This document shows positions 32,487-59,310 of a stretch of DNA of 64,000 nt, piece after piece (position 1 is the first letter of the stretch; every line of letters begins with the position of its first letter). Location: IMG/VR virus record IMGVR_UViG_3300037485_001872, positions 1 to 64,000 of that record. The stretch is one strand, 5' to 3'. The stretch comes from a virus. Under the pieces are notes generated by a model. The model was not told where the DNA came from. It did no database searches and saw only the letters and a program-made list of their open reading frames with translations. The position numbers were made by a program, and so were the translations under genes.

Positions 32487-32714
32487 TTGCCTTATAAGAC
32501 CTTATTATTAGTTGGTAGGCTTATTTATATGCTAGGTTATTTATATTGCCTTATATGTTGCCTTGTTGCCTTGTTTAAGCATAATAGTTAACATGAATCT
32601 ATTTAGGTTAATAGAGATTTTTATGCGGCAATTATTAATAACATTCATATGACATTCGCATGACAATTGCCTATTGCGGTTATGGTATTTAGTATTACCT
32701 TTGTATTGCCTTAT
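32487..32714 (+). repeat. Iterated TTGCCTTAT-like repeats (origin-like region)
   Basis: TTGCC units start at 32487, 32546, 32558, 32566, 32667 and 32706. Five continue CTTAT or CTTGT. The surrounding 32210-32860 has no gene, is very AT-rich, and also carries several GTTAAC and TGCAAA words. Short direct repeats in an AT-rich gap resemble iterons, but replication origin function is inference. Confidence 0.45.
32649..32703 (+). promoter_or_regulatory. Box promoter of the DUF932 gene
   Basis: ATGACA at 32649 and 32660 (11 apart), TTG (32674-76), 19 bases, TACCTTTG (32696-703). It is the first member of the box-promoter family, read left to right. Confidence 0.82.
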
Positions 32715-32782
32715 TAATTAAACTACTTAGCACGGATTTACTCCGATGACTGAGGAACGCTCTTTGACATCTTGGCAATTAT

Positions 32783-32821
32783 ATAGGGGGTTAACTAAGG
32801 TTAACAACACAAAACCCCTAT
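32783..32821 (+). promoter_or_regulatory. Structured leader of the DUF932 gene
   Basis: ATAGGGG (32783-89) pairs with CCCCTAT (32815-21), enclosing two GTTAAC words. A further hairpin CGGA-TTTAC-TCCG lies about 50 bases upstream. The ~160-base leader is unusual in a genome with mostly leaderless genes. Confidence 0.5.
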
Positions 32822-32862
32822 TCTATGCAAACTAATTTCAATTTTAAAGCAAATTAAAACAC

Positions 32863-33768
32863 ATGGAAACAAACACAATTTTAGACGGTATTTTAGCAGG
32901 TAATGCGCACGTTGAATCGTTAAGGACTCAAGTAATTCAAGCCAAAAAAATGCAATTGCATTCAGGTGTTGAGGGGTTCGAAAGTCCCGAATCTTACGGG
33001 GTTTATAGACATACGGGGGGTGCACCTTTGGGGGTTGTTGGTTCAGTTTTTCAACCAATGGATTTAAACGTATTTATTGACTCGATTGAACAAAGTGTTG
33101 CTAATTGTGGCAATGGTTTGGATATATCTAAGTTACAATATGATGAGTTCAAAGGGGGTTCAAAAGTGGCCTTTTCTTTGCCCGTTAAATCTTACAAACT
33201 TAAAACCCCTCAAGTGGGGGACATAGTTGAAACGAAATTAATGTTTTCAACGGGGTTTGATGGACTAACTAAATGTAGCCTATCTTATATGACTAAGCGG
33301 TTATGGTGTACTAATGGAGCGGCTGCATGGGACAAAAAAACTAGCTTTGAACTTTCCTTTAAAAATACCATTGGGAACCAATTTAAGGTTATGATGTTTT
33401 GTGATGAGGTTATGAATTCAATTAACAATATAGAGGCTTATATTAAGCAACTAAATGAGTTGAATGAATTTAAAGTGACCAAGGAGCAACAAGACAGATT
33501 TGTGACCAAGCTAACAGGCTTTAACATGGGGGAGTATAAAGACCTTAACACTAACAAGCGAAATATTTTAGATAGAATAAATCGTGATATTCTTATTGAA
33601 AGCAATAACACGGGAATGACAGCCTTTAGCTTGTTGCAAGGTATTACAAGATACACCACTCATGAATTGGGCAAAGGGGATGTTAATGCTGTACTTTTTG
33701 ACAATGCAGCTAAACTAAACCAAAAAGCCCATGAACTTGTACTAGTGGAATCATCTAGTTGGAACTAA
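32863..33768 (+). CDS. DUF932 phage/plasmid-like protein
   Basis: 301 residues. Contains the family hallmarks: SYGVYRHTGGAPLGVVGSVFQP near the start, FKGGSKVAFSLPV, then FSTGFDGLTKCSLSYMTKRLWCTNGA, and a helical C-terminal half. DUF932 proteins are widespread in phages and plasmids, often near recombination and SSB genes, and their role is not settled. It has its own promoter, a structured leader and a terminator. Confidence 0.85.
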   Translation: METNTILDGILAGNAHVESLRTQVIQAKKMQLHSGVEGFESPESYGVYRHTGGAPLGVVGSVFQPMDLNVFIDSIEQSVANCGNGLDISKLQYDEFKGGSKVAFSLPVKSYKLKTPQVGDIVETKLMFSTGFDGLTKCSLSYMTKRLWCTNGAAAWDKKTSFELSFKNTIGNQFKVMMFCDEVMNSINNIEAYIKQLNELNEFKVTKEQQDRFVTKLTGFNMGEYKDLNTNKRNILDRINRDILIESNNTGMTAFSLLQGITRYTTHELGKGDVNAVLFDNAAKLNQKAHELVLVESSSWN

Positions 33769-33776
33769 CAAAGGAA

Positions 33777-33800
33777 AGCCCCGAAAGGGGCTTTTTTTAT
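33777..33800 (+). terminator. Intrinsic terminator after the DUF932 gene
   Basis: AAAGCCCC-GAAA-GGGGCTTT with a GAAA tetraloop, followed by further T. Confidence 0.9.
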
Positions 33801-33901
33801 GTCTAAATTTTAGCCCCTTTATTCTAGTTAATATAAATTAGTTAACACACATGTATAACACACACAGATTTAAACTAGTTAACACAAATATAAACACAAA
33901 T

Positions 33902-33937
33902 ATGACATTGTTATGACACAAAAAAGTTGTAACTTTG
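33902..33937 (+). promoter_or_regulatory. Box promoter
   Basis: ATGACA at 33902 and 33913 (11 apart) around TTG (33908-10), then 19 bases and TAACTTTG (33930-37). Here the second box falls in the spacer, unlike most members. Confidence 0.72.
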
Positions 33938-33954
33938 AAGTCAAATATTAAATT

Positions 33955-34368
33955 ATGGAACCTATACTAATTACTACAGACATTGCCAAAGCTATTGGCA
34001 AGGCTATTGCCGAACAAAGCAAATCTATTCTAACTAACAGAGAAAAAGAATTCAAAGTTAGCTTTAACATTCGAGGGGATGTAAACGTAAAAAAAGGAAA
34101 CGATTTTCAACAAATAGTTAACTTTTCAATTGATTGGCAAAAAGCATTTTTATTCGCACTAAATAAGCTAAATAAAGACACGGCAAATACAGTGTTAAAG
34201 GAATTTTTACAAGCTCCTGAAATTGAAATTACAAAGGAATTCAAAACACGTTGTGATACTATCATTAAAGAAATTAAACAAGCTAGTTTAAAAACCGTAT
34301 CAGGTAAGGTTACAATTAATAATCCTTTTCTATCTACTAATGAAATAGAGGTTTGCGAAAATTGCTAA
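33955..34368 (+). CDS. Unknown protein
   Basis: 137 residues, helical, Lys-rich, ending in NEIEVCENC. Single-gene unit with its own promoter and terminator. No family recognised. Confidence 0.65.
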   Translation: MEPILITTDIAKAIGKAIAEQSKSILTNREKEFKVSFNIRGDVNVKKGNDFQQIVNFSIDWQKAFLFALNKLNKDTANTVLKEFLQAPEIEITKEFKTRCDTIIKEIKQASLKTVSGKVTINNPFLSTNEIEVCENC

Positions 34369-34390
34369 ATCGAAATAAGTTAAAACAAAA

Positions 34391-34416
34391 AGCTCACAGA
34401 AATGTGGGCTTTTTTT
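34391..34416 (+). terminator. Intrinsic terminator
   Basis: AGCTCAC and GTGGGCT (one G-T pair) with a 6-base loop and a following T run. Confidence 0.85.
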
Positions 34417-34472
34417 ATGACACAAAGATGACATTAAAAAGCTTGTATAATTAAAAAATAGTTGTACCTTTG
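34417..34472 (+). promoter_or_regulatory. Box promoter
   Basis: ATGACA at 34417 and 34428, TTG (34443-45), 19 bases, TACCTTTG (34465-72). It directly abuts the preceding terminator. Confidence 0.82.
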
Positions 34473-34491
34473 AGTAACAAATTAAAACATC

Positions 34492-34749
34492 ATGCATAAA
34501 AACTTAGTAGTAACTCGCACAGGCCAAACGGCCACAGGTAAATTAGGCAATTTAATCGGCCACAGTATGGACAGTTCAAACACTGTAAGACCTTTGTCAG
34601 CAAGTGACAAACATTTGCAGCAAATGAATTTAGCTCGTATACGTTTGGCCAAATCATTTGTAGAACCTGAATTGTCAAATGAATTAGCAAAATTCGAAGC
34701 TAGTTTAATTGAATCTAAGGAAGACTTTTATGACATTCAAACTAACTAA
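34492..34749 (+). CDS. Unknown small protein
   Basis: 85 residues; a basic, Gly/Thr-rich start (VVTRTGQTATGKLGNLIGH) followed by a helical Glu-rich half. Single-gene unit. No function seen. Confidence 0.6.
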   Translation: MHKNLVVTRTGQTATGKLGNLIGHSMDSSNTVRPLSASDKHLQQMNLARIRLAKSFVEPELSNELAKFEASLIESKEDFYDIQTN

Positions 34750-34767
34750 AATGAAACGCTTAAAATT

Positions 34768-34882: not shown

Positions 34883-34937
34883 ATGACAAAAAGATGACAA
34901 AACTATTTTGCAGTGTTATAATTAAGTTGTAAATTTG
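34883..34937 (+). promoter_or_regulatory. Box promoter
   Basis: ATGACA at 34883 and 34894, TTG (34908-10), 19 bases, TAAATTTG (34930-37). Precedes the gene at 35004. Confidence 0.82.
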
Positions 34938-34944
34938 TATCCTA

Positions 34945-35013
34945 ATGATAGAGGTAATAATCCAAACGATAGTTATTTATTCAATCCTAATTTATAACCT
35001 CCTATGTTTATAA
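34945..35013 (+). CDS. Possible leader peptide
   Basis: 22 hydrophobic residues (MIEVIIQTIVIYS start) beginning 8 bases after the promoter element and ending inside the start of the 35004 gene. It could couple translation of that gene or be a membrane micropeptide. Confidence 0.32.
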   Translation: MIEVIIQTIVIYSILIYNLLCL

Positions 35014-35645
35014 AGTTTCAAACTAAGGTGGTAAAACGTAAACAAGTGGTTAAACGTTTGCTATTCTATTACGAGCAAGCCACAGCCACTGAATTAACGT
35101 ACAATTGGTATGTAGAAGCAAACCAATTTTGCCGTGAATTATCCACAGCTTTTAAAACACCATTGTTTCAAGTTGCTGGCATAGTTTCTGCAATGAGTCC
35201 CCAAAAAAATTGGCAAGAAAATAAAAAGCTTGCCTATCAATTCATGAAAGGTAAACGAGGTGGACAAACTAAGCAGCAAATTTTAAAAGCTGAAAGGTGC
35301 TTGATATGTGACAGTGAAACTGAAATATTTTCGTTGCTAACTAAGAAGGGATTAAAAACAAGTTACTTTTATACTAACTTATTACACCCTGATTTTGACA
35401 GTGGGGTGACAATTGATAGACATGCAATCGGTGCTAGTTTAAATGAATTAAAAGACATTAACACAAACATGAAAGCTGCCGTGTTAACAAAGCCACAGTA
35501 CGATTTTTTTGCCTCATGCTTCAATGATGTAGCAAAGGTCAAAAAAGTATTACCATTACAAGTACAAGCCACAGTTTGGCAAAGCTACAGACGGTTGAAA
35601 GGACTTGTTGAAAGTTATAACACAAACGAAGATATTCCATTTTAG
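35004..35645 (+). CDS. Unknown protein with SSB-like C-terminal tip
   Basis: 213 residues. Helical N-terminal region, then VAGIVSAMSPQKNWQENKKLAYQFMKG and FDSGVTIDRHAIG, features reminiscent of helix-hairpin-helix DNA glycosylase-like phage proteins (compare DUF7178). It ends TNEDIPF, very close to the DDDIPF tip of bacterial SSBs. That tip usually docks onto SSB-binding partners, so the protein may mimic SSB. Fold assignment is tentative. Confidence 0.6.
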   Translation: MFIKFQTKVVKRKQVVKRLLFYYEQATATELTYNWYVEANQFCRELSTAFKTPLFQVAGIVSAMSPQKNWQENKKLAYQFMKGKRGGQTKQQILKAERCLICDSETEIFSLLTKKGLKTSYFYTNLLHPDFDSGVTIDRHAIGASLNELKDINTNMKAAVLTKPQYDFFASCFNDVAKVKKVLPLQVQATVWQSYRRLKGLVESYNTNEDIPF

Positions 35646-35647
35646 TT

Positions 35648-35884: not shown

Positions 35885-35938
35885 TGACAAAAAAATGACA
35901 CAGAAACTTTTTTAATTCAAAAATGTTTCGTACCTTTG
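35884..35938 (+). promoter_or_regulatory. Box promoter
   Basis: ATGACA at 35884 and 35895, TTT instead of TTG at the -33 position (35909-11), TACCTTTG (35931-38), then AATC and ATG. Confidence 0.72.
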
Positions 35939-35942: not shown

Positions 35943-36449
35943 ATGGAAGTAATATATAAAGAAGATGGCCGAGGTACTATCATCACTCCTTTTTTTCATG
36001 AGGTTTATAATAAAAAGGAAAGGATTGAAGTGAATTTTAGCTCATTAGCTAAAGAAATCTTTTCGTTTGCTAAATATGGTGTTATTCAATTTATCATTGA
36101 AACAGACTCTTTAGAAAAAGCAGTTGAATTAGCCAAGGATAGAATAAATCTATTATTTCCTATGTATCCTAAACAAAATGAAATTATAAAGGTTACGGGC
36201 TTTAAATATAATAATGAAAATGTAAAAGTTCCATTTGAGTTATCATTCATGGAAAATACACATCACCAAAATCAATTCACTGCTAATTCCTATAAAACTA
36301 AAATAGGTGACTTATTAAGATATGATTGTAACGGAGATGGTTGGGGATTTTGGTATATTGTAGATGACAATGGAAAAAGAATTTCTGAAAGGTTAAAAGG
36401 AACAACATTTTTAGGTGCAATATCTGATGGTATAATTACAAAGAAATAA
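35943..36449 (+). CDS. Unknown protein, leaderless gene
   Basis: 168 residues, mixed alpha/beta, ending in an antiparallel beta part (GDGWGFWYIVDDNGKRISERL). The ATG is 4 bases after the promoter element. No family recognised. Confidence 0.62.
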   Translation: MEVIYKEDGRGTIITPFFHEVYNKKERIEVNFSSLAKEIFSFAKYGVIQFIIETDSLEKAVELAKDRINLLFPMYPKQNEIIKVTGFKYNNENVKVPFELSFMENTHHQNQFTANSYKTKIGDLLRYDCNGDGWGFWYIVDDNGKRISERLKGTTFLGAISDGIITKK

Positions 36450-36450: not shown

Positions 36451-36505
36451 TGACAAAAAAATGACAAAAAGATTTTGTAGTGTAACGAAAAAATCGTACC
36501 TTTAA
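36451..36505 (+). promoter_or_regulatory. Box promoter of the large noncoding RNA region
   Basis: GTGACA (36451) and ATGACA (36462), TTG (36476-78), 19 bases, TACCTTTA (36498-505). Confidence 0.75.
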
Positions 36506-37233: not shown

Positions 37234-37404
37234 AAGCTTGAACGTGGTATTTTTAGAATAACACAAGGTACTGGCACAGCAGTTTCTGAGCGTTGTGGGT
37301 TCTATTTTAAGCTATTAAAGCCACTGAATGAGTTTATGTATGAGGATTTATTTGAAAAATATAAAAAAGCATTACAATTCCGTGACAATAAATTGAAAAA
37401 ATAG
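37213..37404 (+). CDS. Unknown small protein
   Basis: 63 residues, Lys/Glu-rich. Overlaps the micropeptide gene; no motif. Confidence 0.52.
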   Translation: MEAEIIKKLERGIFRITQGTGTAVSERCGFYFKLLKPLNEFMYEDLFEKYKKALQFRDNKLKK

Positions 37405-37407
37405 TTG

Positions 37408-37415
37408 TAGCTTTG
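37408..37415 (+). promoter_or_regulatory. Partial promoter element
   Basis: TAGCTTTG with a TGACA word 25 bases ahead (37383), but no TTG at the usual distance. Confidence 0.45.
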
Positions 37416-37433: not shown

Positions 37434-37736
37434 ATGAACATACAAGAAAACATCATCAGAGAAAAAATCACCTTTAGAGGTGGAGGAGTTGAAATCAGTC
37501 TTAACTCAGTTGGATTTGAAGGAGAAAAAATGACTGCCTACCAAAATTATTTAGGAGGAGGTATGCTAGGTAGAATAGCAAATGACTGCACCATTAAAAA
37601 TTGGAGAGATAATTCTGAGCTAGTTAAAATAGCAGACGAGCTTAGTAGATATATGTTTGAGGTTACAAATCCTGAGGGAGATTGGGAGAGTACTACCTAT
37701 GAACAGAACCAAAACCTACCTATATCAGCTTATTAA
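37434..37736 (+). CDS. Unknown protein
   Basis: 100 residues, acidic, with a Gly-rich stretch NYLGGGMLGRIAND. Looks like a phage DUF found near accessory genes; function unknown. Confidence 0.58.
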   Translation: MNIQENIIREKITFRGGGVEISLNSVGFEGEKMTAYQNYLGGGMLGRIANDCTIKNWRDNSELVKIADELSRYMFEVTNPEGDWESTTYEQNQNLPISAY

Positions 37737-39529: not shown

Positions 39530-39722
39530 AATTTATTTCAGTGAAGCTCAACAAGGCTATTGTGAGGGAACTCTCTCAGGTAACAGAAGTGGGAACCAAA
39601 AGGAAATCATTTTGCCCAATGGTAAAAGCATACTACTTTATGAGTATCAATATAGCACGACAATGGTTACGTATCCTGACAGAAAATTGACAAAGTGTTT
39701 GTGCGGAAATTCAACTAAATAA
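39516..39722 (+). CDS. Unknown small protein
   Basis: 68 residues from the ATG at 39516; Gly/Ser/Asn-rich, beta-like. Overlaps the micropeptide gene by 14 bases and ends within the next promoter. Confidence 0.5.
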   Translation: MPKNKIYFSEAQQGYCEGTLSGNRSGNQKEIILPNGKSILLYEYQYSTTMVTYPDRKLTKCLCGNSTK

Positions 39723-39732
39723 CGTATCTTTG
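39676..39732 (+). promoter_or_regulatory. Box promoter
   Basis: CTGACA (39676) and TTGACA (39687), TTG (39699-701), a long 23-base spacer, TATCTTTG (39725-32), then TAAC and ATG. Confidence 0.68.
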
Positions 39733-39736: not shown

Positions 39737-39901
39737 ATGAAACACTATCAATATTTTTTCAAAACAGAAAGTGGAGAAACTAAGTTGGCTTGGGGTGTAG
39801 CAAAAAGTGAGACGGCATTAAGAAGTAGCCTAGCTAATTTAGATATTCACGGCATCTCTAGGGGACGAGCTAAAACACACAAAAAATGTATTTCCATCTA
39901 A
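39737..39901 (+). CDS. Small leaderless gene, unknown
   Basis: 54 residues (MKHYQYFFKTESGETK start), basic C-terminus. The ATG is exactly 4 bases past the promoter element. Confidence 0.55.
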   Translation: MKHYQYFFKTESGETKLAWGVAKSETALRSSLANLDIHGISRGRAKTHKKCISI

Positions 39902-40410: not shown

Positions 40411-40466
40411 ATGACAAACAAATGACAATTTCCCTATTGTAATTCCCAAATATAGTTGTAGCTTTG
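40411..40466 (+). promoter_or_regulatory. Box promoter
   Basis: ATGACA at 40411 and 40422, TTG (40437-39), 19 bases, TAGCTTTG (40459-66). A 19-base leader follows. Confidence 0.82.
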
Positions 40467-40485: not shown

Positions 40486-40842
40486 ATGACATTCACAGAC
40501 AAACTAATCAAAGACATTCGTAATGGTAAGGGGTTCTCTAAAACCCTAAGAGGTAAATCACCCAAGTCAGGGTACATGGTTGCTCTCTCAGACTATCGTG
40601 AGCGTACAATTCCCCGTACAAAAAATATAGAACGTATTGGATACGAGCTTCAAGAATTTATCAAGGCTAACTTATTTCCATTATTAAATGGAGCATACCT
40701 AGGTGTATGGGTTACAGATAAAAACATTGTATTTGATGTCTCCGAGAATCTTGCCTCCGAGGTTCTTACAAAAGAACTAGGAAGGGTTCGTAAGCAACAA
40801 GCAATTTGGGATGTGGTTAATGGATGCGAAATATTTATATAA
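40486..40842 (+). CDS. Unknown basic protein
   Basis: 118 residues; the N-terminal 45 are rich in Lys and Arg (GKGFSKTLRGKSPKSG), the rest alpha/beta. Co-transcribed with 40849. Confidence 0.6.
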   Translation: MTFTDKLIKDIRNGKGFSKTLRGKSPKSGYMVALSDYRERTIPRTKNIERIGYELQEFIKANLFPLLNGAYLGVWVTDKNIVFDVSENLASEVLTKELGRVRKQQAIWDVVNGCEIFI

Positions 40843-41313: not shown

Positions 41314-41513
41314 AAGCAACTAGAATACAAAGAGACTTCTGTTATGCCTATGATTTTCTATTCACTACAGAAGCAGAACAACTAGCAAGGAAAGCTATTA
41401 TACGTTCCTTCTCTTTAAGTGTAGAAATTCCACGAAGAAACTTCTTTGAATATAATAATGTTTATGACAAATTAATGACAAAAAAACTTGTTTGCATCAA
41501 AAAAATAATATAA
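41310..41513 (+). CDS. Unknown basic protein
   Basis: 67 residues, ATGA overlap with the upstream gene. Its last 16 codons lie over the next promoter, so the C-terminus may be poorly constrained. Confidence 0.45.
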   Translation: MKATRIQRDFCYAYDFLFTTEAEQLARKAIIRSFSLSVEIPRRNFFEYNNVYDKLMTKKLVCIKKII

Positions 41514-41518
41514 CTTTG
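41464..41518 (+). promoter_or_regulatory. Box promoter
   Basis: ATGACA at 41464 and 41475, TTG (41488-90), 20 bases, TAACTTTG (41511-18), TACC, ATG. Confidence 0.8.
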
Positions 41519-41522: not shown

Positions 41523-42071
41523 ATGTTAAAAGAGTTCGGAATTAAATCAGAAAGTTTTGCTTTATTGGAAGCATTCAAAAAAGAAAGTGAAAAGTTAGGT
41601 GCTGAATATCATACAGTGTTCAATGCTTTCACAGAAGAGAAATTTAAAGATAAGGAGGGGATGTTTTTTGCACAGGCCATTGATGGTACTTGGAGTTTAA
41701 GGTCAGAAGAACAAGAAGGTAAAATACTTTTTGCTTTAACAGGAAGTATTTGTTTAGCTCCTAATTTAGTATTCACTCTTCCTGAGCAGTGGAATGAAGG
41801 AATTGCCGCTATAAAAAATCTTGTAACAGATAGTAAAAAAGTATTTAACCCAAAGAAAATTTATGGGTATGATGCTAAGACTAAGCTTAAAGGAAAATGT
41901 AAACTACATAGCATAGATGAACTTGATAACGTATGGGCATTTGTATCTTGTGAGAACTCAGACTGTTGGGCAGAATCTTTTACAACGGCTCAAGCAGCAT
42001 TGGATTATGTAGGAGAGCGTTTGATGGTGTTCGATGATGTGAAGGAGTTTGGTAAGTGGTTGGCGGCATAA
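41523..42071 (+). CDS. Unknown protein, leaderless gene
   Basis: 182 residues, acidic, mixed fold, with two cysteines close together near the end (CENSDCWAESF). The ATG is 4 bases past the promoter element. No family recognised. Confidence 0.62.
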   Translation: MLKEFGIKSESFALLEAFKKESEKLGAEYHTVFNAFTEEKFKDKEGMFFAQAIDGTWSLRSEEQEGKILFALTGSICLAPNLVFTLPEQWNEGIAAIKNLVTDSKKVFNPKKIYGYDAKTKLKGKCKLHSIDELDNVWAFVSCENSDCWAESFTTAQAALDYVGERLMVFDDVKEFGKWLAA

Positions 42072-42431: not shown

Positions 42432-42629
42432 ATGGAGAACCCCCTAATATTGTATTCTTGGTACTGTGCAATACCTAGTACCGTGTTTGGCATATTTCCA
42501 AATTGCATATACCATTTTCTCCCACGTCTTTTTCATGTTATTTTATTTGGATACCTCTCTTACTATGTAGGAGGGTTGCTTTCAATTTATGGGGAAAGAG
42601 ATTTTGTTGCGGCAATTTTCTTACAATAA
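42432..42629 (+). CDS. Small membrane protein
   Basis: 65 residues from the ATG at 42432, preceded by GGAGGAGG, one of the very few Shine-Dalgarno-like sequences in the window. Hydrophobic throughout, with two likely spans (LYSWYCAIPSTVFGIF and VILFGYLSYYVGGLL). Confidence 0.5.
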   Translation: MENPLILYSWYCAIPSTVFGIFPNCIYHFLPRLFHVILFGYLSYYVGGLLSIYGERDFVAAIFLQ

Positions 42630-42630
42630 C

Positions 42631-42675
42631 ATGACACAATATGTTTGGTGGTTTAAATATCTAGTTGTATCTTTG
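42631..42675 (+). promoter_or_regulatory. Box promoter
   Basis: ATGACA (42631), with a degenerate TTACAA 11 bases upstream, TTG (42645-47), 20 bases, TATCTTTG (42668-75). Confidence 0.75.
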
Positions 42676-42694: not shown

Positions 42695-42886
42695 ATGAAT
42701 CCAAAATTAAGAATCCAAAACATTGACGGAGTTACCAAGGAATTTGATAAGAAAGAAGATGCCATTGAGTTTATTCAAAATCTCTTTATAGAAAATGAGG
42801 ATTGGTCAGAAATGAAAAACCCCAATACATATGCAGAATGTGTAAATTACCTAGTAAAGTTTTGTGATAATTGGATATTGATATGA
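42695..42886 (+). CDS. Unknown small acidic protein
   Basis: 63 residues from the ATG at 42695; a longer frame would cross the promoter. Asp/Glu-rich; ATGA overlap with the next gene. Confidence 0.55.
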   Translation: MNPKLRIQNIDGVTKEFDKKEDAIEFIQNLFIENEDWSEMKNPNTYAECVNYLVKFCDNWILI

Positions 42887-43122: not shown

Positions 43123-43170
43123 AAGAGAATGTTAAAAGAGATTTTTAAGCGGCCAAATCCTGATGATAAT

Positions 43171-43215
43171 ATGACAATACTTATTTGGTGATGTCAATTA
43201 GTAGTTGTAACTTTG
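43171..43215 (+). promoter_or_regulatory. Box promoter
   Basis: ATGACA (43171), a partial copy just upstream, TTG (43185-87), 20 bases, TAACTTTG (43208-15), AGCT, ATG. Confidence 0.77.
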
Positions 43216-43219: not shown

Positions 43220-43402
43220 ATGAAAGAATCTAAAAAAGAATTTATTAAACGTAACATTAAATCTTATGGTAGAGAGGATTTTATCTCTTTGCTTAATGAA
43301 AATATTCAAAATCTAGCTGAGGATGGAATGGCTAATGAGAATAAGTTTCAGATTAAATGGTTTTGTGATATGTTAATTCAAATAGAAAAAGATGAACTTT
43401 AA
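43220..43402 (+). CDS. Unknown small helical protein, leaderless gene
   Basis: 60 residues, Lys/Glu-rich. ATG exactly 4 bases after the promoter element. Overlaps the next gene by 11 bases. Confidence 0.55.
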   Translation: MKESKKEFIKRNIKSYGREDFISLLNENIQNLAEDGMANENKFQIKWFCDMLIQIEKDEL

Positions 43403-43676: not shown

Positions 43677-43732
43677 CTGACAATAAAATGACAAAATAAG
43701 CTTGGTGGTGTGAAACCCTTGTCGTACCTTTG
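43677..43732 (+). promoter_or_regulatory. Box promoter
   Basis: CTGACA (43677) and ATGACA (43688), TTG (43702-04), 20 bases, TACCTTTG (43725-32). Confidence 0.8.
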
Positions 43733-43750: not shown

Positions 43751-44431
43751 ATGAAAAAAGTATTATATCTTAATTATGGCAGACCATTCCCAACTGCTGA
43801 ACCTGATGGGGAAAGTGTAAAATTTCTTGATATTAAGTCATTTAGAATTGTTTGGGGAAATATTGAGGTGACGGATTTGAAGGGGGAGATACATTACCTA
43901 CCCATGGTGTGTAATTTGTTTTATTACAATGGTGTATACTACTCAGATATTTGGGTGGAAATGATTCATGATAATGTCGCCTCAGAACAATTCGACATTA
44001 ATAAAACTAAGCTAACTAATCCACTTCCTATTCAACACCCAAGTTTAGGCGAGGTGCTTCAAATACTAACAGATGAAATTGAGGTGGATGGGGAAACTAT
44101 GCAATACATTTTGGAGGAGTGTAATATGGACGAGCAAATGTTCAAGCAACTTCTAAATACCAAGGACTATGTTTCAAATTACCTAGCAGAGTATTTAGCT
44201 GAAAGAAAGGAAGGGAAAGGAAAGAATAAGGAGCTGAAACACCGCCTAAAAATGATTGAGGAAGATATGGCCGCCATTGTATCCTTTATAAAAGAGGGGG
44301 GTTTATCTGAAACATTTAAAAACCCAACACCTTTCACTGATGAAGCTTGGACTCATATAAGCAACATTGAAATAGCTTGTAACCTACAGGCAGATGAATC
44401 TTTGAATTGGAAGCCTTTTAGAAAGAACTAG
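43751..44431 (+). CDS. Unknown acidic protein
   Basis: 226 residues from the ATG at 43751; an in-frame TTG upstream lies in the promoter. The N-terminal ~85 residues are beta, the rest helical with a coiled-coil-like stretch near 150-180 (KGKNKELKHRLKMIEEDM). No family recognised. Confidence 0.6.
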   Translation: MKKVLYLNYGRPFPTAEPDGESVKFLDIKSFRIVWGNIEVTDLKGEIHYLPMVCNLFYYNGVYYSDIWVEMIHDNVASEQFDINKTKLTNPLPIQHPSLGEVLQILTDEIEVDGETMQYILEECNMDEQMFKQLLNTKDYVSNYLAEYLAERKEGKGKNKELKHRLKMIEEDMAAIVSFIKEGGLSETFKNPTPFTDEAWTHISNIEIACNLQADESLNWKPFRKN

Positions 44432-44432: not shown

Positions 44433-44702
44433 ATGAATCCAGAAGAAGAATCATTAAAGACTTTTTGGAGAGATGTGAGGAATCAGGAGATGACAATTAG
44501 ATATGCAGCAGAACTAGTATGGAACTATCTTTACTCCCACCCGAAAGAATTCTTAACTCGGAAGCAGTTCATAGAGGATAACCACCTCAATAGTCAATTG
44601 GAATTTATAGTAGTTAATCAGGTTTGGAATGATATTGAGAATAATGACACCCTTATATATTGGGACTTTAAATCTTATTATGAAAACCTTACACTAATAT
44701 GA
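44433..44702 (+). CDS. Unknown protein
   Basis: 89 residues, helical and Trp-rich. It follows the previous gene by one base; its end overlaps the next box promoter. Confidence 0.55.
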   Translation: MNPEEESLKTFWRDVRNQEMTIRYAAELVWNYLYSHPKEFLTRKQFIEDNHLNSQLEFIVVNQVWNDIENNDTLIYWDFKSYYENLTLI

Positions 44703-44742
44703 CATTAAAAGTTTGTAGTGTAATAAATTAGTTGTAGCTTTG
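44699..44742 (+). promoter_or_regulatory. Box promoter
   Basis: ATGACA (44699), TTG (44713-15), 19 bases, TAGCTTTG (44735-42). Only one clear box. Confidence 0.77.
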
Positions 44743-44762: not shown

Positions 44763-45296
44763 ATGAACCTACCGACAACTTGGCTAGAAGCCCTAGAAAA
44801 AAAGAAACAAGAAGCAGAAAGTAACCCAACAGCCTTTAAATTTAATGATGGTGGAAGAGCCTCAGCAGGATTTAAGGGAACCACGGGAGATTGCGTTGTA
44901 AGAGCCATTGCCATTGCTACTAAGCAAGAGTATAAATTGGTGTATGACGAACTGACAGAACGTATTAAATCTTTCGCCACCTCCTCTCGGAGTAGAGCCG
45001 CCAAGAGTATTAAAACGCATTCACCATCTAAAGGAGTTCACAGGGAGGTTTATGAAAAATATCTATCTGAACTAGGATGGAAGTTTGTTCCCACCATGGG
45101 AATTGGAACAGGATGCACATTACATATCGGGGATGTAGTGAAGAAGGAGGGGGAAATTCTTTGCTCCTCTAATCGGATTATTGCTAGAGTGAGCAAGCAT
45201 TTAGTGGCCATTGTAGAAGGGGTTGTTGAAGACACCTATGATTGTACAAGAGGAGGTAACAGATGTATCTATGGATATTACACTCAGCTGACATAA
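44763..45296 (+). CDS. Papain-like fold protein (phage cysteine hydrolase-like)
   Basis: 177 residues. GFKGTTGDCVVRAIAIAT (Cys ahead of a helix, about residue 44), then VSKHLVAIVEG (His) and VEDTYDCTRGG (Asp) give the Cys-His-Asp order of papain-like enzymes. Proteins with this GDCVxRAI signature are common in phages and lack a proven role. A Ser/Arg/Lys-rich loop (SSRSRAAKSIKTH) precedes the His strand. Intracellular protease or deubiquitinase-like activity is conceivable but unproven. Confidence 0.58.
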   Translation: MNLPTTWLEALEKKKQEAESNPTAFKFNDGGRASAGFKGTTGDCVVRAIAIATKQEYKLVYDELTERIKSFATSSRSRAAKSIKTHSPSKGVHREVYEKYLSELGWKFVPTMGIGTGCTLHIGDVVKKEGEILCSSNRIIARVSKHLVAIVEGVVEDTYDCTRGGNRCIYGYYTQLT

Positions 45297-45331
45297 ATAT
45301 TTTGGTATTTAAAAATTAAGTTGTAACTTTG
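45288..45331 (+). promoter_or_regulatory. Box promoter
   Basis: CTGACA (45288), TTG (45302-04), 19 bases, TAACTTTG (45324-31), AATC, ATG. It starts inside the preceding gene's stop. Confidence 0.77.
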
Positions 45332-45482: not shown

Positions 45483-45896
45483 ATGTTTATAGTTAATTAC
45501 AAAAGAAAAGACAATGGTGAGTCATTGGGTTATCACTTGGATACATTTGGTAGTTTAGGTAAGAAAGAACACGCTAAATGTTATGGTGATGATACTGACA
45601 CTCAGGAAGATATTGATAGTCAATTAGCGGTGATTAGAAAAAACTTAAACCATCGCCTAAGTGAAGGTGGTGGAGGTGGAATGTTTGCTGAGATATTTAT
45701 TAAGCAAAAGGAGCAATCATATCAAGGATTAAATGCCGACCAAATTGATATTGTTGCAGAAGCAGTTGTTTATAAAGAACAAGAGTTAGTTGCTCATACA
45801 ATAGTTGATGAAAATGGTGTACATAAAATTCGTAAACCATTGGTTGATGTTGTTGTGGACATGGTTAAAAAAGTTGCAGGTTATGGCAAAGATTAA
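45483..45896 (+). CDS. Unknown protein
   Basis: 137 residues; starts with a beta hairpin, has a glycine run (EGGGGGMFAE) near residue 62, ends helical and basic. No motif. Confidence 0.57.
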   Translation: MFIVNYKRKDNGESLGYHLDTFGSLGKKEHAKCYGDDTDTQEDIDSQLAVIRKNLNHRLSEGGGGGMFAEIFIKQKEQSYQGLNADQIDIVAEAVVYKEQELVAHTIVDENGVHKIRKPLVDVVVDMVKKVAGYGKD

Positions 45897-46080
45897 TTTA
45901 GATAGACACGTTTGGGAGGATGTTAAAGATTATGAATCTTTATATCAAATTAACCAAGAAGGTGTGGTGATTCAAAGTACAGGAGTCTCAATAATGGAGT
46001 CTAAACTTTATTCCCCTCTACCTGAGAATGAGAGACAAGGTAAATTAGGTTGTATAAATACTCAACTTCTTGACAAATAA
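45883..46080 (+). CDS. NUMOD4-like fragment
   Basis: 65 residues from the ATG at 45883. VWEDVKDYESLYQINQEG is the NUMOD4 motif that normally introduces HNH homing endonucleases, but no nuclease follows. It looks like the leftover N-terminus of an eroded homing gene that kept an open frame, overlapping the upstream gene by 14 bases. Confidence 0.55.
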   Translation: MAKINLDRHVWEDVKDYESLYQINQEGVVIQSTGVSIMESKLYSPLPENERQGKLGCINTQLLDK

Positions 46081-46125
46081 ATGACAATACTTTCTTGTTT
46101 ATATCAAACATCGGTTGTAGCTTTG
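46070..46125 (+). promoter_or_regulatory. Box promoter
   Basis: TTGACA (46070) and ATGACA (46081), TTG (46095-97), 20 bases, TAGCTTTG (46118-25), TTCT, ATG. Confidence 0.82.
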
Positions 46126-46129: not shown

Positions 46130-46384
46130 ATGCAAATGAAACACTTTAATATCATTGCCGAGGATGGAAAGGTTGTAGGAACAATTGTAAATTGCTCCTC
46201 AGACCCACACGGAAGACTCTCGTTAACTAAAAGGATGAAGGTGGCACTAGAGGAACACTTTGATGTAGATGTTGTCTTAAATGAGCTCCCTGACGTTTTT
46301 ACAAACTCTCCTAAATACACTATGAAAATTTTTAGAGGTGGGTATAGGGAGGAAATATCAATAATGGAAACTTGGATATATTAA
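46130..46384 (+). CDS. Unknown small protein, leaderless gene
   Basis: 84 residues, alpha/beta. Exact 4-base spacing to the promoter element. Confidence 0.58.
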   Translation: MQMKHFNIIAEDGKVVGTIVNCSSDPHGRLSLTKRMKVALEEHFDVDVVLNELPDVFTNSPKYTMKIFRGGYREEISIMETWIY

Positions 46385-48860: not shown

Positions 48861-48915
48861 GAGACATAAAAATGACAAAAAAATCTTGTAGCGTAACAAA
48901 AAAGTTGTACATTTG
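48861..48915 (+). promoter_or_regulatory. Box promoter
   Basis: GAGACA (48861) and ATGACA (48872), TTG (48886-88), 19 bases, TACATTTG (48908-15). Confidence 0.77.
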
Positions 48916-48929: not shown

Positions 48930-49112
48930 ATGAAACTATCTACAGAAATAATTGAAGGAATCACATACACCAAAGTGGAAGGAGTGGGACAAACGTTTTC
49001 AGTGAAAGGAGTTAAGTCTATCAAAGAAGTACTTTCTATATTAGATAAGATAGAAAAGGACTCAGAACGGTTTTTTACTAAAGTGGCTAGTATTTCTATT
49101 TTGGAGGTGTAA
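48930..49112 (+). CDS. Unknown small protein
   Basis: 60 residues, beta start and a helical centre. Its stop codon lies on the first bases of the attC-like element. Confidence 0.52.
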   Translation: MKLSTEIIEGITYTKVEGVGQTFSVKGVKSIKEVLSILDKIEKDSERFFTKVASISILEV

Positions 49113-51433: not shown

Positions 51434-51478
51434 ATTACAATATAATGACAATACTTTCAAATATTAATTGTATCTTTG
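51434..51478 (+). promoter_or_regulatory. Weak box promoter
   Basis: ATTACA (51434) and ATGACA (51445), no good TTG, TATCTTTG (51471-78), TACT, ATG. Confidence 0.6.
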
Positions 51479-51482: not shown

Positions 51483-51560
51483 ATGAATCAATTTATAATA
51501 CTCACAGCACTATGTTTTATTGTACCAATGTTTTTAGGAAGGAAGAAAGATGAAGCTTAA
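51483..51560 (+). CDS. Membrane micropeptide
   Basis: 25 residues: one hydrophobic helix and a charged tail RKKDEA. Leaderless layout; overlaps the lipoprotein-like gene by 11 bases. Confidence 0.45.
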   Translation: MNQFIILTALCFIVPMFLGRKKDEA

Positions 51561-51741
51561 AATTGTAATTTTAATAGCTCTCTGCTCATTACTATCTAAC
51601 TGCCAAAGTGTTTTTGTATGGACAGTACAAGATGTTATTGGTTTAGGTTTTCTAGGTCTAATAATAATTATTGGTTTATTTATTGGGTTGTTAATCCTCC
51701 TTGATAAATTTAAAATGTGGTGGAAAAATAATTTTAAATAA
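51550..51741 (+). CDS. Small lipoprotein-like membrane protein
   Basis: 63 residues. Starts MKLKIVILIALCSLLSNC, a plausible lipoprotein signal with lipobox LLSNC; a second hydrophobic segment lies at about 27-50. Lipoprotein plus overlapping membrane micropeptide recalls spanin pairs, but other membrane roles are equally possible. Confidence 0.52.
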   Translation: MKLKIVILIALCSLLSNCQSVFVWTVQDVIGLGFLGLIIIIGLFIGLLILLDKFKMWWKNNFK

Positions 51742-52069: not shown

Positions 52070-52589
52070 AAAATATCCCTGTAAAGAATGCGGAACTTTA
52101 GTTGTCATTAGAAGTAAGGGAAAATGTCCGTTATGTCGGTCATTAGAGTTAAAATCAGCCTCAATGGGGGATATTTCATACAAAACACCTAAAAAAGGGG
52201 AAAGTAAACAACAAAAAGCAAGAAAAGAAAAAAGAGATTGTCTCTCACAATTCTTTAAAGAGCAAATTGAATTATTGGCACAGAATCCATATTGTAGAGA
52301 GACAGGAGTTCAAATTATACCGAGCTCTTTTTCAGTTTGTCATATTCTCCCTAAGAGAAATCATTTTTCTATACAATGCCACCCAGACAATGTAATATTT
52401 CTACATGTGGATGTACATTCTCGCTTTGATAGGCTCCTAGATGAACATAGATTTTCTGAGCTAACTAAGATGAATATATGGCCTATAGTTAAATTTAAAT
52501 TAGAGAGGCTACTTCCTGAGTTAAAGGAGGTGACAAAACTAGGGGAAGCCTTAAAAGATTTTCTTTATGAAATTAATGCACAAAAATGA
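52056..52589 (+). CDS. NinG-like / HNH-type zinc protein
   Basis: 177 residues. Zinc ribbon CKECGTLVVIRSKGKCPLC at the start, a Lys-rich linker, then CHILPKRNHFSIQCHPDNVIFLHVDVHSRFD, which has the spacing of an HNH or NinG-type nuclease core. NinG proteins help recombination in lambdoid phages. Overlaps the previous gene by 14 bases. Confidence 0.68.
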   Translation: MNPPKKYPCKECGTLVVIRSKGKCPLCRSLELKSASMGDISYKTPKKGESKQQKARKEKRDCLSQFFKEQIELLAQNPYCRETGVQIIPSSFSVCHILPKRNHFSIQCHPDNVIFLHVDVHSRFDRLLDEHRFSELTKMNIWPIVKFKLERLLPELKEVTKLGEALKDFLYEINAQK

Positions 52590-52629
52590 CAAATAAATTT
52601 TGTAATAACAATAAAAACTTGTAAATTTG
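52586..52629 (+). promoter_or_regulatory. Box promoter
   Basis: ATGACA (52586), TTG (52600-02), 19 bases, TAAATTTG (52622-29), CACT, ATG. Confidence 0.78.
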
Positions 52630-52633: not shown

Positions 52634-52939
52634 ATGAATTTATATAACGATTTAAAAGAAGGAGACAAAGTACGTGTATTAAGAAGTGGAAGTCGCTATA
52701 ATACACATCCAGAGTTAGCTAAAGAGCTAGATGTTTTAGTTGATGCTAAATGTTATTTTAAAGTAGAGGAACCTAAAACAGGAATTTACACCTTCATGAG
52801 ATACATTTCTTTTTCTAATTGTAAAAGGGTGTTATTAATGAGGACAGGGGTTAAAAGATTTAAGTATTATGCTTTCGGTATAGAAAATAACTATGAATTA
52901 TATGACAACCCACCATTTGAATTATACAAACAAAAATGA
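52634..52939 (+). CDS. Unknown beta-rich protein, leaderless gene
   Basis: 101 residues; GDKVRVLRSGSRYN suggests a KOW/SH3-like barrel. Spacing to the promoter is exactly 4 bases. Begins an operon through the exonuclease genes. Confidence 0.57.
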   Translation: MNLYNDLKEGDKVRVLRSGSRYNTHPELAKELDVLVDAKCYFKVEEPKTGIYTFMRYISFSNCKRVLLMRTGVKRFKYYAFGIENNYELYDNPPFELYKQK

Positions 52940-55250: not shown

Positions 55251-55957
55251 TGGGAAAAATAAATTTAATAAATAAACTAACTACCGACTGTTGGTTCTAT
55301 GAGGATAATAAAGAATTATTGGCTCCTCATATGGGGAAGTTTTATATAAGTTACTCCTCGATTTCTTCATGGGAGGATTATCGTAGTGATTTTATAAAAC
55401 AAAAACTTGTAGGTATTTCTTTACCAGAGTCTGTGTATTCGAACTTCGGCTCGTGGGTGGGTGAAAGTGTTGAGCACGGGAAAGTACAAACTAATAATTA
55501 TGGCTTTACAGGACACGAAAACATTTCTTTAATTGAACGTAAACCAAATGCCAAATATGAAAGGATGGTGTTGATTGATATGGGGGAATATTGCATTATT
55601 GGCTTCATAGATATTCTAGAAGAAAAAACAAATAAGGTGGTGGATTTGAAGGATGTAAAGACTGGAGGTAGTAAAAAAGAGGAAGAATATAAAAAAGAAA
55701 GTTATGTTCAATTACTTATATATGCACATGCTCTAGTCTTAGAAGGGTATACAATAGATAGTATGGGTGTTTGGTTCTGTAGACGTACGGGCTCCCACAT
55801 AAAACCGCCCTTACATTTATCAAATGAGCAGTTTTATATTCCTTTGGTGTATGATGCGAAAAGAGTGAAGTATGCCCTAGATAAGGTAGAAAGAGTAGTG
55901 AAAGAAATTAGTGAATTTTACACTACTTTTACAAAATTCTTTGGTGATTCAAAATAA
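55250..55957 (+). CDS. PD-(D/E)XK (RecB/Cas4-like) nuclease
   Basis: 235 residues. YSSISSWEDYR (the start typical of RecB-like nucleases), then IGFIDILEEKTNKVVDLKDVKTGG with Asp and the DxK dyad, and SYVQLLIYAHALVLEG, the Q-motif helix. Usually processes DNA ends with a helicase or exonuclease partner. One-base overlap with the previous gene. Confidence 0.8.
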   Translation: MGKINLINKLTTDCWFYEDNKELLAPHMGKFYISYSSISSWEDYRSDFIKQKLVGISLPESVYSNFGSWVGESVEHGKVQTNNYGFTGHENISLIERKPNAKYERMVLIDMGEYCIIGFIDILEEKTNKVVDLKDVKTGGSKKEEEYKKESYVQLLIYAHALVLEGYTIDSMGVWFCRRTGSHIKPPLHLSNEQFYIPLVYDAKRVKYALDKVERVVKEISEFYTTFTKFFGDSK

Positions 55958-55971
55958 TTAACGTATCTTTG
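55941..55971 (+). promoter_or_regulatory. Promoter without TGACA box
   Basis: TTG (55941-43), 20 bases, TATCTTTG (55964-71), TATT, ATG; it lies across the end of the nuclease gene. Confidence 0.72.
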
Positions 55972-55975: not shown

Positions 55976-56140
55976 ATGGAAATTTTAGATAGAGCTATAA
56001 AGGGGGAATCCCTTAACGCAAAGGAAAAAGAGGAACTTACAAAACACCTCTCCCAATACGATGGAACCCCCTACTTGCAGGAAATCCTAAACAAAATACC
56101 GAGTTTAAAATATATTGAATTACCAGAAATTCCACTATGA
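55976..56140 (+). CDS. Small leaderless gene, unknown
   Basis: 54 residues, helical (LNAKEKEELTKHLSQYDG). Starts an overlap chain of six small genes; ATGA overlap with the next. Confidence 0.55.
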   Translation: MEILDRAIKGESLNAKEKEELTKHLSQYDGTPYLQEILNKIPSLKYIELPEIPL

Positions 56141-56982: not shown

Positions 56983-57179
56983 TGGAAAAAACAGCAGTAG
57001 ACTATTTAATAGAAATTCTAGAAGCACCTTGCAGGGGTATACCAACCTTCGTCATTGAAAAAGCTAAAGAGATTCATAAACAGCAGCTATTAGATGCGTG
57101 GAAACAAGGTAATAATGAAGGATATTTAAATACTCTCATAACAGCAGAGGATTATTATAATGACACCTATGGAAAATAA
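56982..57179 (+). CDS. Small helical protein, paralogue of the next gene
   Basis: 65 residues. MEKTAVDYLIEILE, then AKEIHKQQLLDAWKQG and YYNDTY match a short phage family often seen in Bacteroidota phages; role unknown. Confidence 0.6.
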   Translation: MEKTAVDYLIEILEAPCRGIPTFVIEKAKEIHKQQLLDAWKQGNNEGYLNTLITAEDYYNDTYGK

Positions 57180-57399
57180 AACAGCTTTACAGCAATTAAT
57201 AGAAGAATTAAGTATAGTTAACCCACATTCAGTAGGTCAGGTTATTTTAATGGTTAAACACTATTTAAAAACTGAAAAAGAACAGATTTGTGATGCTTAC
57301 TTTCAGGGGATAGGTTTTTGTCTAAATGAACGAGAGGGTACGGGAGATACTGATGATGCTAGTGCTGAGTTTTACTTTACAGAAACCTTTAAACAATGA
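57160..57399 (+). CDS. Small helical protein, paralogue of the previous gene
   Basis: 79 residues (ATG at 57160; the ATG at 57169 is also possible). ENKTALQQLIEELS and KTEKEQICDAYFQG align with the preceding protein. Tandem duplication followed by divergence is likely. Confidence 0.6.
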   Translation: MTPMENKTALQQLIEELSIVNPHSVGQVILMVKHYLKTEKEQICDAYFQGIGFCLNEREGTGDTDDASAEFYFTETFKQ

Positions 57400-57554
57400 A
57401 ATATTTAACAATAGACAAAACAGCTAAAATTTCTATTTACTCAAAGTCTATTAAACCTACAACTAATTCAGAATTAATTATAGTGGATTTAGTTGAAAAT
57501 CAGGTGAGTTATGATGGAGGAAATTTGTGGGTACTTACTAAGTGGGCAAGATAA
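57396..57554 (+). CDS. Small protein, unknown
   Basis: 52 residues, beta-like. Overlaps the ATPase start by one base. Confidence 0.47.
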   Translation: MKYLTIDKTAKISIYSKSIKPTTNSELIIVDLVENQVSYDGGNLWVLTKWAR

Positions 57555-58549
57555 TGATACTACAACAAGGTGATGTTATTAAATTTTCTAGCGATGCTAC
57601 ATTTCTAGAAGAAATACCAAAAGGTAATTGGCTCCTTAACTTGGACACAGTGTCCATGTATTTGTCCAAGCTTCCTCAATTTACCCTTCCATCAAAGATT
57701 TATGGGGATTATTTGACCACCAGTAAACATTACTTATCGTCCTTTAATTCCCTTCCAAACTCCACTGGGGTGTTACTATCGGGGAGTTCGGGTAGTGGAA
57801 AAAGCTTACTAGCTAAGATGGTTTGCGAAATGTCCAACCTTCCTGTAATTATTATTAGTGAATACTATACAGGAACACAGTTTCATAAGGTTTTAAATGA
57901 AATATCACAGGATGTTGTAATTTTCATTGATGAGTTTGAGAAGATTTATGACACCCATGAGAAGCAAAATGAATTTTTGCCAATTTTAGATGGTGTTTTT
58001 CAGAATAAAAAACTGTTTATTTTCACCACAAATAATCCTTCGGTGAATAAATTCCTTTTAAATCGGCCAGGTAGAGTCAGATACCATAGGCATTTCACAG
58101 GGCTTTCTGAAGAGCTTATTGAAGAAGTACTTTCGGATAATGTAACCGATGTAGATGTTAAGAAGCAAATATCTGAAATCTGTCTTACGTTAGGTGATGT
58201 TTCCTATGACGCTTTACAGTCTATTTTACAAGAAGTTAATATGTATAGCATTTCCCCAGCTGAGGCTGTAAATCTTTTGAATATAGAGGTGCAATCTTCG
58301 CATTACAGAGTGTTTCTCATAATAAAGGGAAAACATTACACTTCTTCCTTTGAAGGCCATCCTGTGGTAAATGAGGAGTACTCAGTGGGGTATAAAGACG
58401 ATGGGGGTTGGTGGGATAAGTCGTACATTGTAAAATTAAGGGATTTTGATATTTATTATGAATCTGGGGGACGTGTTGAGTTAAGACATAAAGAGGAAAC
58501 CACTGTTCTTAGGTTTGAAAAAATAGTTCCATATAAATTTGAACTATGA
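57554..58549 (+). CDS. AAA+ ATPase
   Basis: 331 residues from the ATG at 57554. Walker A GSSGSGKS (77-84), Walker B VVIFIDEFEK (121-130), sensor 1 in FIFTTNN (about 160) and an RPGR arginine motif (171-174) are all present. The C-terminal ~100 residues form a separate beta-rich domain. It resembles central-domain remodellers (BCS1/FtsH-like ATPase class). Role in this phage unknown; candidate for remodelling a replication or transcription complex. Confidence 0.8.
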   Translation: MILQQGDVIKFSSDATFLEEIPKGNWLLNLDTVSMYLSKLPQFTLPSKIYGDYLTTSKHYLSSFNSLPNSTGVLLSGSSGSGKSLLAKMVCEMSNLPVIIISEYYTGTQFHKVLNEISQDVVIFIDEFEKIYDTHEKQNEFLPILDGVFQNKKLFIFTTNNPSVNKFLLNRPGRVRYHRHFTGLSEELIEEVLSDNVTDVDVKKQISEICLTLGDVSYDALQSILQEVNMYSISPAEAVNLLNIEVQSSHYRVFLIIKGKHYTSSFEGHPVVNEEYSVGYKDDGGWWDKSYIVKLRDFDIYYESGGRVELRHKEETTVLRFEKIVPYKFEL

Positions 58550-58581
58550 CATTGTTTTTACACAAAATATTCGTACCTTTG
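58546..58581 (+). promoter_or_regulatory. Box promoter of the sigma factor gene
   Basis: ATGACA (58546), TTG (58552-54), 19 bases, TACCTTTG (58574-81). The box abuts the TTG as in the promoter at 33902. Confidence 0.78.
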
Positions 58582-58588
58582 TATTGTA

Positions 58589-59092
58589 ATGTCTGATGAA
58601 GAATATTTAAAAGGGTGTAAGCAAAATTCACAATTTCACCAGAAAGCCCTATACGATGCTTTTTCCAAGCAAATGTTTGGAGTGTGTTTGCAATATTGTA
58701 AAAATAAACACCAAGCTGAGGATGCATTGCAGGAAGGGTGGTTGAAGGTATTTAAGTATATTAAATCTCTAACTCTTACAGGTTTGTTAGTGGGATGGAT
58801 TCGTAAAATCATGGTGCACACCTGTCTAGATATTAATAGAAAAAATAACAATAATTTAGTTGAATATAATGATGCAATGGGTGTAATGGTGTCCCCGTCA
58901 AATAATATGGATGCTAAATACCTTCTCTCTGTTATAAATAAACTCCCAGAAGGTTATAAACAAGTGTTTTTATTATTTGCTGTTGAGGGATGGAGTCATA
59001 AACAAATAGCAGAACAATTAAATATTCAGGAGGCGACATCACGGACACAGTACTTGAGGGCTAGAAATATGTTACGTAAAATATTATGTTAA
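58589..59092 (+). CDS. ECF-like RNA polymerase sigma factor
   Basis: 167 residues. Region 2: HQKALYDAFSKQMFGVCLQYC, then KHQAEDALQEGWLKVFKYI, the core-binding and -10-reading helices of ECF sigmas. Region 4: LPEGYKQVFLLFAVEGWSHKQIAEQLN and EATSRTQYLRARNMLRKIL, a clear helix-turn-helix. No anti-sigma domain. It would redirect host polymerase to phage promoters; which ones is not shown. Confidence 0.88.
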   Translation: MSDEEYLKGCKQNSQFHQKALYDAFSKQMFGVCLQYCKNKHQAEDALQEGWLKVFKYIKSLTLTGLLVGWIRKIMVHTCLDINRKNNNNLVEYNDAMGVMVSPSNNMDAKYLLSVINKLPEGYKQVFLLFAVEGWSHKQIAEQLNIQEATSRTQYLRARNMLRKILC

Positions 59093-59280
59093 AATGTAAG
59101 TGGAATTCGGGAAACCTAGCGATTCTTTGCTCATTCTGTTCTAAAATCTTAAAAACAGGGAATGAGTTTTCAGAAGAGGAACATAAATGTATAAGAGGGG
59201 ATGTTGAACTCCCAGCACAATATTGTACAACTTGTAATAACAGCCTTTGGAAAATTCTTAGGAATAATACAAAAAAATGA
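59086..59280 (+). CDS. Small zinc-ribbon protein
   Basis: 64 residues; CSFC and CTTC pairs about 40 residues apart with an additional Cys before the second. It overlaps the sigma factor stop by 7 bases, so it may be its co-regulator. Confidence 0.57.
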   Translation: MLKCKWNSGNLAILCSFCSKILKTGNEFSEEEHKCIRGDVELPAQYCTTCNNSLWKILRNNTKK

Positions 59281-59310
59281 CAATACTCTCAACTATTAAT
59301 TGTATATTTG
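59277..59310 (+). promoter_or_regulatory. Box promoter with poor -33
   Basis: ATGACA (59277), no TTG, TATATTTG (59303-10), CACT, ATG. Confidence 0.62.

Follow-up and report, generated by a model that had tools for sequence, protein, structure and literature searches.

A tandem promoter box of an uncultured phage matches a predicted operator upstream of hemA in Bacteroidota

Gene map of the phage

We analysed a 64,000-nucleotide stretch of viral DNA (the window), which comprises bases 1-64000 of the 134,122-base IMG/VR record IMGVR_UViG_3300037485_001872 and contains a family of rightward promoters preceded by a direct repeat of TGACA at an 11-base-pair (bp) step, hereafter the box. A similar repeat, predicted to be an operator, lies upstream of hemA in Bacteroidota. 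The terminase, the portal and one virion protein of the record match phage families, and the closest annotated phages are csAssE-Sib and the Cellulophaga phages phi17:2 and phi4:1 (36-40% portal identity). The 134-kb record is that of a relative of phi17:2 and the csAss phages; searches of viral contigs via its DUF932 protein and via the portal alone returned no close relatives. Structural genes, mostly leftward, occupy both ends of the record. Between them, a single rightward region of about 25-75 kb contains many small genes of no assigned function together with a DUF932 gene and genes for nucleases, an AAA ATPase, an extracytoplasmic function (ECF) sigma factor, ribonucleotide reductase and DNA polymerase.

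Occurrence of the box

On the + strand of the window there are 12 copies of TGACA-N6-TGACA, all between 32.6 and 46.1 kb; the - strand has none, and no TGACA pair with any other step from 9 to 16 is present in the window. A third-order Markov control of the 32-60 kb region gave 0.08 pairs on average and at most one in 300 runs. The pattern described in an earlier note on this DNA is confirmed. When T[GT]ACA pairs 5′ of TAnnTTT[GA] were counted, the + strand contained 19 at step 11 and none at steps 7-10 or 12-16, and the - strand contained two at step 11 and two at step 13. Strict TTG-N19/20-TAnnTTTG cores had a proximal box at -34 to -37 from TA in 13 of 20 cases within 32-60 kb and in none of 20 cases elsewhere (other + regions and the - strand). 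We list 22 box promoters, all rightward, from 32,650 to 59,310, which agrees with the previous estimate of about 20. Promoters lacking the box are found at 25-32 kb, at 60-75 kb and on the late strand; the block itself also contains a few. The box family is certainly real and strict in its geometry. It is restricted to a single rightward block, and the previous description of it as phage-wide was too broad. One pair, at 35396/35407, lies within a gene without a promoter and is probably a chance occurrence. A single pair in reverse orientation, TGTCA-N6-TGTCA, is present at record position 74325-74340 (L009 10325-10340), 5′ of a promoter at 74379.

Geometry of the box promoters

Positions were counted from the T of the -7 element. 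In 17 promoters, the main register, the two copies start at -46 to -48 and -35 to -37. The first of these, at 32650-32703, precedes the DUF932 gene (32863-33768) and has TGACA at 32650 and 32661, TTG at 32674 and TAnnTTTG at 32696. Comparable promoters lie at 34418-34472 (copies at 34418 and 34429; before the gene at 34492-34749), 34884-34937 (34884 and 34895; before the DUF7178 gene at 35004-35645), 36451-36504 (36451 and 36462), 40412-40466 (40412 and 40423; before 40486-40842), 41465-41518 (41465 and 41476; before 41523-42071), 43678-43732 (43678 and 43689; before 43751-44431) and 46071-46125 (46071 and 46082; before 46130-46384). TTG is lacking at 35885-35938 (35885 and 35896; before 35943-36449) and at 39677-39732 (39677 and 39688; before 39737-39901). 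TTACA is followed by TGACA at 42621-42675 (42621 and 42632; before 42695-42886), 44689-44742 (44689 and 44700; before 44763-45296) and 45278-45331 (45278 and 45289; before 45483-45896), and both copies are TTACA at 55918-55971 (55918 and 55929; before 55976-56140). The promoter at 48862-48915 has AGACA at 48862 and TGACA at 48873 (before 48930-49112). Only one good half-site is present at 43161-43215, where a degenerate TGATG at 43161 precedes TGACA at 43172 (before 43220-43402), and at 52576-52629, where a poor ATGCA at 52576 precedes TGACA at 52587 (before 52634-52939).

The other five promoters use two further registers. At -36/-25, one helical turn from the main register, the box occupies the place of the -33 element and TTG is missing; these promoters are at 37372-37415 (TTACA 37372, TGACA 37383; before 37434-37736), 51435-51478 (TTACA 51435, TGACA 51446; before 51550-51741) and 59267-59310 (ATACA 59267, TGACA 59278; before 59315-59659). 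At -27/-16, TTG stands between the copies, as found at 33903-33937 (33903 and 33914; before the 137-amino-acid gene at 33955-34368) and at 58547-58581 (TGACA 58547, TTACA 58558), where the box lies across the -33 element of the ECF sigma factor gene (58589-59092, + strand; Sigma70_r2 and Sigma70_r4_2).

The list of two-copy cases in the earlier note needs some corrections. Its 36451/36462 is one base out of step with the rest, being the T of TGACA, its 48861 is the imperfect AGACA, and it lacked 33903/33914, 35885/35896 and 39677/39688. Three of its one-copy or variant sites (42631, 44699 and 45288) are TTACA-N6-TGACA pairs, a fourth, at 58546, is a TGACA-N6-TTACA pair, and 37383, 51446, 59278 and the TTACA-N6-TTACA pair at 55918/55929 belong to box promoters as well.

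Most box promoters have the core of the Bacteroidota housekeeping promoter (-33 TTG/TTTG and -7 TAnnTTTG) with its spacing: TTG at 19-20 is found in 15 of the 17 main-register promoters and TAnnTTTG in 21 of the 22, the remaining -7 element, at 36451-36504, being TACCTTTA. The proximal copy starts 13 bases 5′ of TTG in 11 of 14 main-register promoters, and the box offset followed -33 rather than -7 with a Fisher p of 0.09, which is only suggestive that box position tracks -33. What the phage adds to this core is the 11-bp-spaced box and a preference within the -7 element. TAnCTTTG, with C at the fourth position, accounts for 17 of 21 box promoters versus 3 of 14 boxless ones, and TATATTTG for 1 of 21 versus 9 of 14, in a boxless set that included 55964, afterwards shown to have a TTACA pair. 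With that caveat, the TAnCTTTG bias, which the phage's boxless promoters do not share, is a second sign that the box promoters are a separate class. As had been proposed, the box does not belong to the core Bacteroidota promoter: among 395 Bacteroidota genomes, none had the 11-bp repeat together with a TTG-N19 core, which rules out a general Bacteroidota element.

A matching element upstream of hemA

We examined 30 Chitinophagaceae hemA loci that had been picked by protein family PF05201, blind to the box. ATGACA-N5-ATGACA was present before hemA at all 30, with no more than one mismatch in the TGACA pair, compared with about 0.3 such cases per 30 in shuffled hemA upstream sequence. The distal copy starts at -46/-47 from -7 in 25 of the 30 loci and at -57/-58, one turn further upstream, in the other five; a -33 TTG is present at only three. 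A search of 61 Chitinophagaceae genomes, in which the pair had to lie as far from TAnnTTTG as in the phage, gave 25 matches and none in the control. The matches precede hemA (23), hemH (one) and a PD40 protein gene (one). Single matches 5′ of hemC and of ccmE were obtained when about 85,000 genomes were scanned for the array, the genes being confirmed with Pfam. Of 28 hemA loci in a broader sample, eight had the pair, one of them in a Chitinophaga metagenome-assembled genome; four of the eight, all outside Chitinophagaceae, have TTACA-N6-TGACA as in the phage. Three flavobacterial hemA loci had no pair and instead had a divergent AraC-type gene and other upstream sequence. The hemA upstream loci with the conserved predicted operator are L207-L236, L277, L280, L283 and L284. 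This putative hemA operator is strongly conserved in Chitinophagaceae and is found in other Bacteroidota, and it is apparently undescribed in the literature that we searched.

The phage box thus matches the predicted heme-regulon element in half-site, TTACA variant, step, orientation and position: the distal copy lies at -46 to -48 in 17 of 22 phage promoters and at -46/-47 in 25 of 30 hemA loci. The two settings differ in number, with one site per Chitinophagaceae genome versus about 22 in the phage, and in that Chitinophagaceae hemA mostly lacks TTG and the -36/-25 and -27/-16 registers are present in the phage. The earlier note had taken the box to define a phage regulon with an unknown regulator. 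That the box is peculiar to the phage is contradicted by these hemA data, the same box also preceding hemH, hemC and ccmE, and the need for a phage regulator is probably a mistaken reading.

A shared host activator as the predicted reader

The most probable explanation, to which we assign a probability of about 0.68, is that a bacterial activator of heme genes, rather than one made by the phage, turns on the roughly 22 phage promoters. The box, (A)T[G/T]ACA-N6-T[G/T]ACA, would be the operator at which a host protein activates the heme-biosynthesis regulon of Bacteroidota, and the phage would have copied this hemA upstream element before the promoters of its block of small genes, which are presumably expressed early. 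TTG and TAnnTTTG would be read by host RNA polymerase carrying the main Bacteroidota sigma factor, and the activator, bound to two half-sites on one helical face just 5′ of -33 or in place of -33, would recruit or stabilise the polymerase. From the shared half-sites and register we infer that one protein reads both the phage and the hemA boxes and that it activates. Activation by polymerase contact near -33 is the simplest model because hemA mostly lacks a -33 TTG and one phage register replaces TTG with the box. Since the phage mostly retains TTG, its promoters may be strong ones that are further boosted, and boxes in the -27/-16 register may repress or may work as CII does. The suggestion that a tandem or dimeric regulator could bind one face of the DNA is partly supported; of its two alternatives, activator or repressor, the direct repeat spaced by a helical turn is most simply read as the site of a tandem or two-headed activator.

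One candidate reader, whose gene is linked to the hem cluster in Chitinophagaceae, is an AraC-family protein of 307 amino acids with an HTH_18 domain. It is present in one copy in 32 of 41 Chitinophagaceae, and in seven its gene lies no more than about 12.5 kb from hemA. The flavobacterial hemA neighbour is homologous to its DNA-binding half, and boxes are enriched in the promoter region of the candidate's own gene (six perfect and seven one-mismatch, versus 0.06 and 1.7 by chance). AraC proteins have two helix-turn-helix (HTH) motifs, which contact consecutive major grooves on the same face of the DNA, a layout that would fit the 11-bp pair. No clear orthologue was found in six box-positive genomes outside Chitinophagaceae, which counts against this candidate. 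No DNA-binding regulator adjoining hemA was noticed at six loci outside that family. An OmpR-family regulator would also fit the repeat; RprY of that family was dropped as a candidate, the literature searched giving no binding motif. The missing orthologue also weighs against a shared host activator, as do three other considerations: the host regulon is seemingly very small relative to some 22 phage sites, the hemA element was read in Chitinophagaceae and other Bacteroidota that are perhaps not the host of the phage, and most phage proteins have no known family, which leaves room for a phage-coded reader.

Such a reader would be a phage protein that has escaped recognition, is produced shortly after entry, binds the box and controls an early-to-middle regulon, with the hemA likeness due to convergence or to shared regulator ancestry. 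T4 MotA and lambda CII are phage-coded activators of this kind, CII recognising the repeat TTGC-N6-TTGC about one turn apart, and the present promoters resemble theirs in forming a phage promoter class in which an activator box near -35 is added to a host-type core. The density of sites, about 22 in one block and far above that of any bacterial genome, favours a phage activator, and the -27/-16 register before the gene at 33955 could signal autoregulation. Unlike the MotA and CII sites, however, the box is common to host hem genes and lies for the most part wholly 5′ of -33. The CII layout, with the repeat across -35 at a 10-bp step, was not found; the step is 11 and TTG is straddled in 2 of 22. 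Among the phage proteins, the ECF sigma factor and a DnaA C-terminal HTH protein were the only ones with a recognisable DNA-binding regulator domain, the predicted structure of the 33955 product was unusable (mean predicted local distance difference test score of 44), and convergence would have to account for half-site, TTACA variant, step, orientation and register together. We consider a phage-made activator unlikely. A host or phage repressor that keeps the block off, for immunity or timing, is a far weaker candidate. The -27/-16 register does straddle the -33 TTG, a classic repressor position, but most boxes lie 5′ of -33, and a purely repressed promoter is unlikely given that hemA mostly lacks a -33 TTG.

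Two further explanations draw on known DNA-binding systems. It is highly improbable that the box is an element for RNA polymerase itself, similar to the UP-element site of the alpha subunit C-terminal domain and perhaps used after modification by an injected ADP-ribosyltransferase, as with T4 Alt. Counted from the start, the copies lie near -58 and -47, which would coincide with the two UP subsites of Escherichia coli, and one giant virion protein weakly matches ART-PolyVal. That match is below the Pfam cut-off, however, and host promoters should often have an element meant for polymerase, yet this one is nearly limited to hemA and a few genes. A Pho-box-like site read by PhoB of the OmpR family, which would make the promoters follow phosphate state, has the least to recommend it. 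The E. coli Pho box is an 11-bp direct repeat with the half-site TGTCA, and the opposite strand of the phage box reads TGTCA-N6-TGTCA, with the same half-site and step. The phage copies, however, read TGACA toward the promoter, in the orientation opposite to that of the Pho box; the box genes are hemA, hemH, hemC and ccmE rather than phosphate genes; and four 3.3-kb PhoU-family loci had no box, pst promoters being covered in part. An OmpR-family reader that responds to another signal is compatible with the Pho-like repeat.

Timing and consequences

In the crAss-like phages phi14:2 and crAss001, which belong to a related phage order and likewise have an early block of small genes, a virion RNA polymerase is reported to read the early genes (PMC8375218, PMC10136315). 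The gene map and these relatives suggest early expression of the box genes here (PMC8375218, PMC10136315). The present phage differs from them in that its promoters are host-type and no virion RNA polymerase was recognised: none of its proteins matched an RNA polymerase family, and one DYDGD motif, of the DxDGD type expected in such a giant polymerase, occurs in a 2354-amino-acid open reading frame (ORF) of no assigned function.

If the shared-activator explanation is right, and only then, the phage host would be a non-flavobacterial, box-bearing member of the Bacteroidota. For an uncultured phage this would shorten the list of likely hosts, and operators common to phage and host promoters could be of use in host prediction. 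The regulator that had earlier been left unnamed becomes a testable prediction, namely that a single host protein controls hemA and about 22 phage promoters, and an apparently undescribed, strongly conserved candidate operator of heme synthesis is exposed in a large part of the Bacteroidota. More tentatively, the whole early programme of a lytic phage may be wired to a host heme regulator, such that takeover would be stronger or weaker according to the cell's heme or redox state and infection would divert the regulator from hemA.

The box in other phages and in bacterial genomes

A search of relatives for the box array, which the earlier note had proposed, found no box pair in phi17:2 or csAssE-Sib, whose promoters are host-type, or in phi4:1, a 131-kb relative and smaller fragments. 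Relatives identified through the AAA ATPase are distant, and the box was not found in them. Of 2.9 million viral contigs scanned, 10 contained the whole array, each of them once, which rules out a widespread phage promoter family. Unrelated phage contigs also have box promoters, one each. Four of the 10 contigs have ATGACAAAAAAATGACA before the promoter, and in the two of these that were examined the genes resemble those of tailed temperate-type phages.

Related arrangements were observed elsewhere. A 44.7-kb phage contig (L044, 1581-1640) has six consecutive TGACA copies, each exactly 11 bp from the next, 5′ of a Bacteroidota-type promoter (TTG/TATAACTTTG). A different phage (L035, 184,913 bases) has eight TTGACA-N5-TTGACA pairs at an 11-bp step in one region (1621-6294 and record positions 183262-184685); the five inspected are all 5′ of E. 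coli-type -35/-10 promoters, and these pairs mark a parallel promoter class that is perhaps unrelated.

The scan of some 85,000 genomes found the array in 106 stretches, in which two kinds of gene recurred: hemA, in Chitinophagaceae and their relatives, and tyrosine-recombinase genes, in Bacteroidales elements. The tyrosine-recombinase genes of these mobile elements have TGACA-N6-TGACA 5′ of a Bacteroidota promoter (L045, L047, L069, L082, L084, L113, L131, L145 and L149; L093, L094 and L103).

Other genes of the phage

The ECF sigma factor has distant homologues (23-32% identity) in other crAss-like phages, such as cr115_1. The DnaA C-terminal HTH protein is a stand-alone protein of 96 amino acids, encoded at L009 3821-4111 directly 3′ of the DNA polymerase gene. 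ORFs judged from their sequence to resemble GIY-YIG homing endonucleases are scattered through the phage (window 18532-19173, 25371-26114 and 48420-48671; L009 11336-11986). Giant late proteins are encoded on the - strand at L010 4-6910 and 9456-16520 and at L009 11986-19998, and their domains include LPD23, the weak ART-PolyVal match, radical-SAM and a nicotianamine-synthase-like domain.

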